From Halanaerobiales bacterium (GTDB lineage Bacteria > Bacillota > Halanaerobiia > Halanaerobiales > DATFIM01): DNA of 33,481 nt. Positions 31,152-33,481 of this stretch are shown here, piece by piece (within the stretch, counting starts at the first letter, position 1; each line of letters opens with the position of its first letter). The translations under genes were made by a program, and so were the position numbers. The notes below the pieces were generated by a model that was not told the origin of the DNA, ran no database searches, and was given only the letters and a program-made list of their open reading frames with translations. Location: the NCBI GenBank assembly GCA_035270125.1, contig DATFIM010000074.1, forward strand, positions 1 through 33,481, in the 5' to 3' direction.

Positions 31152-32501
31152 ATGCTTTCCGATTTAAATAAAAAAGAATTATTATTGATTCTAGATAATT
31201 TACATGAAGCAGTCTGTGTAGTAGATAAAGAAAAACGAGTATTGTTTTGGAGCAAAAAATCTGAAGAGCTTTTTGAAATAAAAAAAGAAGAAATAATTGA
31301 TGAGAAATTAAGTGATTTTTTTCCTAATGCTCTTTTGCTTAAAGTAGTTGATGAAAGGAAAGCAATTGAAAATATTATTTTAAGTCCCAAAGAAGGCAGT
31401 TATGTTATTTTAAGTGGGATTCCACTTTATTCTGATGGTGAATTTTTAGGAGCGGTAGCTACTGATAGAGATGTAACAGAAATTATTAATACTTCAAGAA
31501 ATAATGAAAATGATAAATCAGGTGAAAATGTAACCAATTTTGAAAGAGGAGATTGTTTTGATAATATAATAGGACAAAGTGAAATAATCGAGAATAAAAT
31601 AAACAAAGCAGCTCGAGTTGCAAGGACAAATAGTAGTATAATTATTTCTGGAAAAACAGGAACCGGTAAAGAAATATTTGCTCGAACGATTCACTGTTAT
31701 AGTAAACGCAAAGGGGATTTTGTGCCTGTTAACTGTAGTGCTATCCCTGAAAGCCTTTTTGAAAGTGAGATGTTTGGTTATGTTGAAGGTGCTTTTACAG
31801 GTGCATCAACTAAAGGTAGACTTGGGAAATTTCAAAAAGCTCATAAGGGAACTTTATTTTTAGATGAAATAGAAGCTTTGCCTTTAACAATGCAACCCAA
31901 ATTACTCAGAGTTCTTCAGGATAAAGAGATTGTTCCTGTTGGAGGAGATAAAAAGATTAATGTTGATGTAAGAATAATTGCAGCAACTAATAAAGATTTG
32001 AGAAAATTAGTTGAGGAAGGTAAATTTAGAGAAGATTTATATTATAGATTAAATGTAGTAGATATTAATTTACCTGAACTACAGGAAAGGAAAAAAGATA
32101 TTCCGCTTTTTATCAATCATTTTATAGATCAATTTTGTCAGGAAAATAATATTTATACAAGACCCAAAATAGAACCTAAAGTTTTAAAATTTTTGATAGA
32201 ATATCCCTGGAATGGTAATGTTAGAGAATTGAAAAACACTGTAGAACATTTAGTGTTATTTTCTCGGAATGGAATGATTACTAAAGAGAGTATTCCAGAT
32301 TATATAATTGCTGAAAATGATAAAAAACAAAAGGAAACTTTTGATTTAAAAGAAAATTTGAAAGAAAAGGAAATTAATCTTATAAAAAAAGCCATGAAAA
32401 AAACAGAAGGGAATAAAAAATTAGCAGCTGAATTATTAAATATTCCTCGAAGTACATTGTATTATAAATTAAATAATTATAATTTAGAAGAATTAAAATA
32501 A
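31152..32501 (+). CDS. Sigma-54-dependent transcriptional activator (PAS - AAA+ - Fis HTH)
   Basis: A 449-residue bacterial enhancer-binding protein. An N-terminal PAS domain occupies about 8-112 (LDNLHEAVCVVDKEKRVLFW). The AAA+ domain (about 135-370) has Walker A SGKTGTGKE (166-174), the sigma-54-contacting GAFTGA at 213-218, Walker B GTLFLDEIE (233-241) and the arginine-containing FREDLYYRLNVV. The Fis-type helix-turn-helix is at the C terminus (NKKLAAELLNIPRSTLYYKL, 421-440). The PAS domain suggests it responds to a small ligand rather than to phosphorylation. Two dyads start two bases after its stop codon and a sigma-54 promoter lies 111 bases downstream, so it is very likely the direct activator of the symporter genes. 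SD GAGGAGG precedes ATG 31152. Confidence 0.95.
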   Translation: MLSDLNKKELLLILDNLHEAVCVVDKEKRVLFWSKKSEELFEIKKEEIIDEKLSDFFPNALLLKVVDERKAIENIILSPKEGSYVILSGIPLYSDGEFLGAVATDRDVTEIINTSRNNENDKSGENVTNFERGDCFDNIIGQSEIIENKINKAARVARTNSSIIISGKTGTGKEIFARTIHCYSKRKGDFVPVNCSAIPESLFESEMFGYVEGAFTGASTKGRLGKFQKAHKGTLFLDEIEALPLTMQPKLLRVLQDKEIVPVGGDKKINVDVRIIAATNKDLRKLVEEGKFREDLYYRLNVVDINLPELQERKKDIPLFINHFIDQFCQENNIYTRPKIEPKVLKFLIEYPWNGNVRELKNTVEHLVLFSRNGMITKESIPDYIIAENDKKQKETFDLKENLKEKEINLIKKAMKKTEGNKKLAAELLNIPRSTLYYKLNNYNLEELK

Positions 32502-32502
32502 C

Positions 32503-32538
32503 TGTCAAAAAACTGACATAACCGTCAGTATGTTGACG
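32503..32538 (+). promoter_or_regulatory. Tandem dyads, probable enhancer (UAS) for the sigma-54 activator
   Basis: Two inverted repeats with one architecture: TGTCA-N6-TGACA at 32503-32518 and CGTCA-N6-TGACG at 32523-32538. Consensus is YGTCA-N6-TGACR. Their centres are exactly 20 bp apart, about two helical turns, and lie near -127 and -107 of the start site expected from the sigma-54 promoter at 32612. This is the classical spacing of enhancer sites for proteins with a Fis-type HTH. The second dyad is also the stem of the terminator. Confidence 0.65.
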
Positions 32539-32550
32539 GTTATTTTTTTA
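32518..32550 (+). terminator. Intrinsic terminator after the sigma-54 activator gene
   Basis: Perfect 10-bp stem (32518-32527 with 32534-32543), six-base loop GTATGT and seven T in a row after the stem. It should stop transcripts of the activator gene, and its stem contains one of the two dyads described as possible activator sites. Confidence 0.88.
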
Positions 32551-32611
32551 TTTTAAGGTGTTAAACAATAAAAATCAGCATTATTATTAGTTTATAGTAA
32601 TTATTAGAGGC

Positions 32612-32627
32612 TGGTATAATATTTGCA
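32612..32627 (+). promoter_or_regulatory. Sigma-54 (-24/-12) promoter
   Basis: TGGTATAATATTTGCA matches the sigma-54 consensus: TGG at -24, TTGCA at -12, with the GG and GC dinucleotides at the exact required distance (ten bases between). The transcription start is expected near 32638. It faces the small membrane-protein/PutP genes, and a sigma-54 activator gene lies directly upstream. The TATAAT inside it is a coincidence of the AT-rich spacer or a minor alternative. Confidence 0.82.
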
Positions 32628-32681
32628 AGTTAATATAAGTGGTTAGGCACAGGGTACATATAATTTAAATTTTCTAAAAAT

Positions 32682-32810: not shown

Positions 32811-32924
32811 ATGAAAAGTAGTTTACCTTTTTTTACGACATTTTGGCTTCTTGCACCTAGTTTAGCAATTGTTATTTTATCCTTAATTAATGTTATTAAA
32901 AAAGAAACAGGTGATAACGAATGA
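32811..32924 (+). CDS. Small symporter accessory membrane protein (37 aa)
   Basis: A 37-residue protein with a short N terminus, one hydrophobic helix (about 7-28, rich in Leu, Ile, Phe, with FWLLAPSLAIVIL) and a charged tail (KKETGDNE). Its start has AAGGGAG upstream. It overlaps the symporter gene by four bases (ATGA), so the two are translationally coupled. Small single-helix proteins are known next to genes for sodium:solute symporters and related carriers, for example MetS with MetP. A role in assembly or stability of the symporter is the natural inference. It is too short for most gene finders. Confidence 0.82.
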   Translation: MKSSLPFFTTFWLLAPSLAIVILSLINVIKKETGDNE

Positions 32925-33481
32925 GCCCAGAAATAATTACCTTTATTATTTATATAGGCGGTATGATGGGAATTGGCTATTATTTTTACAAACAAAATGA
33001 ATCAACATCAGATTATTTTCTGGGTGACCGTTCTCTTAACCCTTATGTTACTGCCTTAAGTGCACAGGCAAGTGATATGAGTGGTTGGTTGCTTATGGGT
33101 TTTCCTGGAGCTGTTTATGCCGGTGGCTTTAATGCAATGTGGATTGGTATAGGTCTAGCTATAGGTACCTATTTAAATTGGCAATTTGTTGGGCAGAGAT
33201 TACGTCGTTATACTGAAGTAATAGATGCTATAACAATTGCTGATTTTTTTGAGAAACGTTTTAAAGATAATAGTAGGGTTTTGAGAATTGTAACAGGTTT
33301 AGTTATTTTAGTATTCTTTACTATCTATGTATCTTCTGGGCTTGTTGCTGGAGGTAAGCTTTTTGAAAGTCTATTAAATATAGACTATACAATAGCAGTT
33401 TATTTTTCAGTGGTTATTGTTGGTTTATATACAGTTTTAGGTGGTTATTTAGCTGTTAGTTGGACAGATTTTGTCCAGGGG
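32921..33481 (+). CDS. putP: Sodium:proline symporter (SSS family), N-terminal part, runs off window
   Basis: Imports a small solute, most likely proline, together with sodium. The first 187 residues are present, and the frame is open to the window end. It begins with a membrane helix (IITFIIYIGGMMGIGYYFY), then SDYFLGDRSLNPYVTALSAQASDMSGWLLMG, the PutP signature. D52 here corresponds to the sodium-binding D55 of Escherichia coli PutP. YAGGFNAMWIGIGLAIGTY and further helices follow the normal PutP order. The ATG lies within the stop of the small accessory gene. Control by the sigma-54 promoter upstream is strongly suggested. In a salt-adapted organism it could serve osmoprotection or proline catabolism; other SSS substrates remain possible. 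Confidence 0.93.
   Translation, partial: MSPEIITFIIYIGGMMGIGYYFYKQNESTSDYFLGDRSLNPYVTALSAQASDMSGWLLMGFPGAVYAGGFNAMWIGIGLAIGTYLNWQFVGQRLRRYTEVIDAITIADFFEKRFKDNSRVLRIVTGLVILVFFTIYVSSGLVAGGKLFESLLNIDYTIAVYFSVVIVGLYTVLGGYLAVSWTDFVQG

Follow-up and report, generated by a model that had tools for sequence, protein, structure and literature searches.

Two tandem dyads that follow a PrdR-like sigma-54 activator gene in a Halanaerobiales bacterium quite probably have two roles, as judged from sequence comparison. As DNA, they would be the upstream sites of the adjacent activator, and as RNA they would pair with each other to form the terminator of the activator mRNA. The window, that is the whole stretch of DNA analysed (33,481 nucleotides, contig DATFIM010000074.1), contains the following features around this region:

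31152..32501, + strand: PrdR-like sigma-54 activator gene, 449 aa, with PAS, AAA+ and Fis-type helix-turn-helix domains (Pfam Sigma54_activat, HTH_8, PAS; NF041552)
32370..32480, + strand: DNA-binding domain HTH_8, residues 407-443, with recognition helix IPRSTLYYKL (Pfam)
32495..32546, + strand: predicted hairpin formed by both dyads and their flanks, stop codon TAA 32499-32501 included (minimum-energy fold; covariation in relatives)
32503..32518, no strand: dyad 1, TGTCAAAAAACTGACA, pattern TGTCA-N6-TGACA, predicted upstream activator site that also supplies the 5' arm of the hairpin
32523..32538, no strand: dyad 2, CGTCAGTATGTTGACG, pattern CGTCA-N6-TGACG, predicted upstream activator site that also supplies the 3' arm of the hairpin and can fold alone
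32543..32549, + strand: T-run of the predicted intrinsic terminator (sequence)
32612..32627, + strand: sigma-54 -24/-12 promoter TGGTATAATATTTGCA of the next operon (pattern match; sigma-54 gene in the genome)
32811..32924, + strand: small ORF, 37 aa, membrane-helix-like, overlapping the symporter start by 4 bp (translation)
32921..33481, + strand: sodium/solute symporter, PutP-like, running off the contig (Pfam SSF; NCBIfam TIGR02121 Na_Pro_sym)

The activator gene and the next operon

The activator has the hallmarks of a sigma-54 activator (bEBP), with matches to PF00158 (231 bits) and PF02954 (48 bits) and a GAFTGA motif in its translation. Its best named family is PrdR (NCBIfam NF041552), the activator of proline reductase genes. 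The score of 640.7 bits lies under the curated cut-off of 795, and we therefore call the protein PrdR-like rather than PrdR. Unlike PrdR of Clostridiales, it matches profile positions 133-577 only and is not a full-length match, the N-terminal 132 positions being missing; its target is a symporter, and no PrdA above cut-off, and hence no proline reductase target, was found in the 96% complete genome. Because of the NF041552 score below cut-off, the lack of a PrdA above cut-off and the symporter as target, this PrdR-like activator has apparently been reassigned to uptake. Three hits in relatives (L118, L174 and L251) likewise begin near profile position 123-133, which suggests that the PrdR-like activators without the N-terminal profile region form a short subfamily.

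The promoter element TGGTATAATATTTGCA is the sole match to TGGYRYN6TGCW in the window. Its GG at -24 and its GC at -12 are separated by 10 bp, and sigma-54 itself is encoded in the genome (PF04552 match, at a contig edge). Overlapping the sigma-54 element, at 32591-32620, is a sigma-70-like promoter (TTTATA-18-TATAAT; its -10 is preceded by TG), from which the symporter could also be transcribed at a basal housekeeping level. Downstream, TIGR02121 Na_Pro_sym was the top NCBIfam match for the 187-aa symporter fragment. The 37-aa small ORF had no match in Pfam or NCBIfam; it resembles a small accessory subunit.

The two dyads and the predicted terminator

The gap between activator and promoter reads, in order, TAA (32499-32501), dyad 1, dyad 2, T-run (32543-32549) and -24/-12 element (32612-32627). 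An earlier note on this DNA, made from the sequence alone, had described two copies of YGTCA-N6-TGACR after the sigma-54 activator gene, beginning two bases past its stop codon and with centres exactly 20 bp apart, near -127 and -107. We found both copies in place. Dyad 1 starts at 32503, the centres lie at 32510.5 and 32530.5, and the same distances are obtained from the -24/-12 element with a start site near 32638.

These are the only two exact matches to YGTCA-N6-TGACR in the window, where shuffles gave an expectation of 0.03 and two matches were reached in none of 100 shuffles. They are also the sole exact matches in the whole 2.3 Mb genome. This genome-wide count is unremarkable by itself and proves nothing, because a backward control pattern occurs three times. 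We therefore rejected genome-wide counts as evidence and retained as informative the tandems and their position only. The tandem arrangement, its location and its recurrence in relatives are not due to chance.

PrdR sites belong to the TGT-N10..12-ACA class (PMC6615313). The window has the corresponding arrangement, with TGT/ACA repeats separated by a 10-12 bp spacer and located upstream of a -24/-12 promoter. Dyad 1 is a TGT-N10-ACA sequence and dyad 2 has CGT/ACG ends, which are also found in relatives.

The same DNA has the sequence of an intrinsic terminator, a stable hairpin followed directly by a T-run. When a 61-nt stretch was folded, the minimum-energy hairpin (32495-32546) had the two dyads paired with each other, with four of the six N6 positions paired, and extended by AAAAUAAC/GUUAUUUU (-23.8 kcal/mol, z -6.8). 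Dyad 2 alone, with its own ATAAC/GTTAT flanks, gave a weaker alternative hairpin (-13.1 kcal/mol, z -5.9), and both hairpins end at the same T-run. The earlier note had taken dyad 2 as the stem of the activator terminator (32518-32550). The terminator stands by sequence, but the strongest fold uses both dyads. The short hairpin may form when a ribosome stopped at TAA covers dyad 1.

Occurrence of the dyads in relatives

We collected 106 PrdR-family genes with downstream sequence from searches of whole and named genomes (L168 was out of frame and uninformative, and L008 was left out of the sample). Dyads were sought within 700 nt of the stop codon, and a tandem was defined as two dyads 18-20 bp apart with at most one mismatch. 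The relatives are non-independent samples. An exact GTCA-N6-TGAC was present in 45 of the 106 gaps, and most relatives with a Thr-Thr (C. difficile-like) recognition helix had no exact dyad. A sigma-54 promoter was found downstream in 91 of the 106, including 43 of the 45 holding an exact dyad. Tandem dyads followed 23 genes. Full searches of seven named genomes showed exact dyads at such close spacing only in the prdR gap. The next operon in relatives usually comprises prdC and the proline reductase genes; L116/L257 have another sodium symporter, then a proline-racemase-like gene (identified from translations). In L118, a short PrdR-like relative, the first dyad lies within the last activator codons and the second 20 bp further on (1412-1447), and the terminator detected is a separate hairpin.

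Conservation of the core and covariation of the flanks

In the alignment of the 23 tandems, GTCA/TGAC was invariant or nearly so, an invariance partly selected since the arrays were picked by core match (at most one mismatch). The flanks and the N6 vary in sequence and retain pairing between the dyads; around an unchanged core we observed, for example, gcccc/ggggc, gaaat/atttc, aaaag/ctttt and aatag/ctatt. Over the 14 non-core positions that flanks and N6 contribute to the cross-dyad stem, 77 compensatory cells were counted versus 32.3 (sd 5.0) in shuffles, and the covariation score was 0.537 versus 0.240 (sd 0.027). Such shuffles ignore descent. Controls that preserve it, in which the partner was slid by 1-3 columns, gave covariation of 0.08-0.22. 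Within single dyads there was no covariation (0.170 versus 0.163 in the 23 arrays), and self-pairing of one dyad was rejected as a conserved RNA fold. What these data predict to be conserved is the cross-dyad hairpin and not the fold of a single dyad.

A T-run follows 19 of the 23 arrays. N6 pairing is poor in the four arrays without one (p about 0.006), and their core is kept. Another dyad-bearing hairpin, further downstream, has taken over as terminator in L041 and L234. Flank pairing correlated weakly with T-run strength (p 0.13); a separation is given only by N6 pairing and the two-group test. The earlier note had proposed to align this gap in relatives, and took conservation of RNA pairing without YGTCA/TGACR as one finding that would speak against its idea. 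The alignment shows the reverse. The core letters stay the same, even where no terminator-like tail is present, and compensatory changes accompany the drift of flanks and N6. A fixed core with compensating flanks is the pattern expected of a DNA site lying within an RNA stem.

Mutation rather than selection for RNA pairing might instead account for the matching of the two dyads, if inverted duplication or template switching perfected imperfect palindromes. In several species (L033, L117) one dyad is nearly the exact reverse complement of the other, as a recent conversion would give. We regard this explanation as unlikely, given the low N6 complementarity of the arrays without T-run (four arrays only) and the pairing of flanks beyond the repeat. 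Such a process could supply the variation on which selection acts.

It seems quite unlikely that the dyads are activator sites only, with the hairpin an unavoidable by-product of adjacent palindromic sites. Every dyad can indeed self-fold, and the core alone provides about five pairs per arm; however, the flank and N6 pairs covary between dyads far above both shuffles and slid controls, and a binding site needs neither covarying flanks nor the T-run that most arrays have.

Association with the activator and with terminators

The base following TGTC was A in 158 of 212 half-sites where the activator has a Ser-Thr recognition helix (IPRSTLYYK-type) and in 23 of 80 where it has Thr-Thr. Such a helix-linked base is in keeping with a helix that reads the site, a supportive observation that is confounded with descent. 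It bears on whether the dyads are bound by another regulator with a TGTCA-type dyad and not by the adjacent PrdR-like protein. The genome encodes a dozen related activators and the site class is common to many activator groups; nevertheless the tandem follows PrdR-family genes despite differing downstream operons (prdC, proline racemase, symporters), and the shift of the base with the PrdR-family helix, with the same reservation on descent, points the same way. We hold binding by another regulator to be highly unlikely.

Terminators were detected by a fixed rule, a hairpin of -10 kcal/mol or below, then at least six T in nine. About half of the PrdR-family gaps had no terminator detected by it. 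The exact dyad was present in 24 of the 57 terminators of the 106 gaps versus 0 of 519 control terminators (Fisher 4e-27), the control being both strands of the remaining DNA of the sampled loci, with the L057 activator gap excluded. We also compared all 256 four-base inverted repeats with an N6 spacer, an enrichment test that does not presuppose the dyad and is free of core-match selection. GTCA/TGAC occurred in 23 gaps and the runner-up in 3, making it the sole strong enrichment. An intrinsic terminator only, its TGTCA/TGACA letters being incidental or a favoured terminator stem, would account for the stable hairpin and T-run but is very improbable, since the repeat is missing from all other terminators of the sampled loci and no other repeat is favoured in the gaps, since the core is kept in arrays without terminator-like tail (L041, L234) and in solitary copies closer to the promoter, and since pure RNA pairing would allow the core to drift like the flanks.

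Discussion

The claim of the earlier note that one sequence both ends the regulator mRNA and serves the next operon as an enhancer is well supported by the conserved core, the covarying stem and the association with terminators. In the mechanism that we propose, the PrdR-like activator would bind both dyads as two side-by-side dimers, on sites about two helical turns apart. The bound dimers would reach the sigma-54 polymerase at 32612-32627 by looping and switch the symporter operon on. Once transcription of the activator gene has run through the dyads, the cross-dyad hairpin and the T-run would terminate the activator mRNA. Selection would retain the GTCA/TGAC letters for the protein and the flank and spacer pairing for termination. 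Sequence and comparison show the putative sites and the conservation of their cores, the covariation of the stem, the promoter and the link with terminators. From them we infer binding of the activator to the dyads, termination by the hairpin in the cell and the looping step. It is doubtful that the overlap goes beyond economy of sequence to a mutual control of enhancer occupancy and activator mRNA 3'-end formation; dyad-bound activator would then stall or block polymerase reaching the end of the activator gene, or be displaced by it.

The window's layout resembles the PrdR upstream activator sites of Clostridiales (PMC6615313): a sigma-54 activator with a Fis-type domain, TGT...ACA dyads with a 10-12 bp spacer, and several sites that adjoin the activator gene and precede a -24/-12 promoter by 100-250 bp. 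In contrast to the sites described there, those of the window double as a predicted terminator, and PMC6615313 makes no mention of terminators or hairpins. The window's stem-loop and T-run after a stop codon are those of intrinsic (Rho-independent) terminators. Unlike in usual terminators of this kind, distant species share the same stem letters, GTCA/TGAC. In operators that overlap terminators, and in roadblock termination, DNA bound by a protein also serves RNA 3'-end formation. For sigma-54 activator sites overlapping terminators, we found no described case in the open-licence literature.

A comparable arrangement was seen in the first 200 nt past the stop codon of thiolase-linked Clostridium activators (L070-L104). 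Right after the stop comes TGTAAAC-N3-GTTTACA, often with caca/tgtg extensions and T-rich DNA behind it, and in several species it gives a hairpin with a T-run. This copy would be at once the first activator site and a terminator-like hairpin; another lies about 85 bp before the sigma-54 promoter. The site sequence differs from that of the window, and there is mostly a single dyad instead of a tandem pair. Flank pairing and covariation of this dyad were not above shuffles, so that the family shows the layout recurring and does not yet establish a dual constraint. The regulator matches the XcaA group, with thl as target (PMC6615313), an assignment made by target gene only.

In Syntrophomonadaceae, activator genes that precede an iron-sulfur protein gene (L050, L053-L059, L063, L065) are followed by a shared terminator whose outer arms TGTCAGTTT/AAACTGACA are fixed and whose inner arms drift; it may be a third case of overlap, with one half-site per dyad.

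As judged from these comparisons, the overlap is real and more general than the earlier note knew. The dual-role layout recurs across distant Clostridia-like lineages and apparently also in activators of a second family. Annotation usually treats enhancer-type sites and terminators as distinct elements, and one sequence here appears to carry both. Terminator predictors and site predictors may each detect half of one element, which calls for caution. A handle is also provided for locating activator sites, by searching the activator gene's own terminator, and these gaps offer a natural system for how transcription through an enhancer affects its occupancy.
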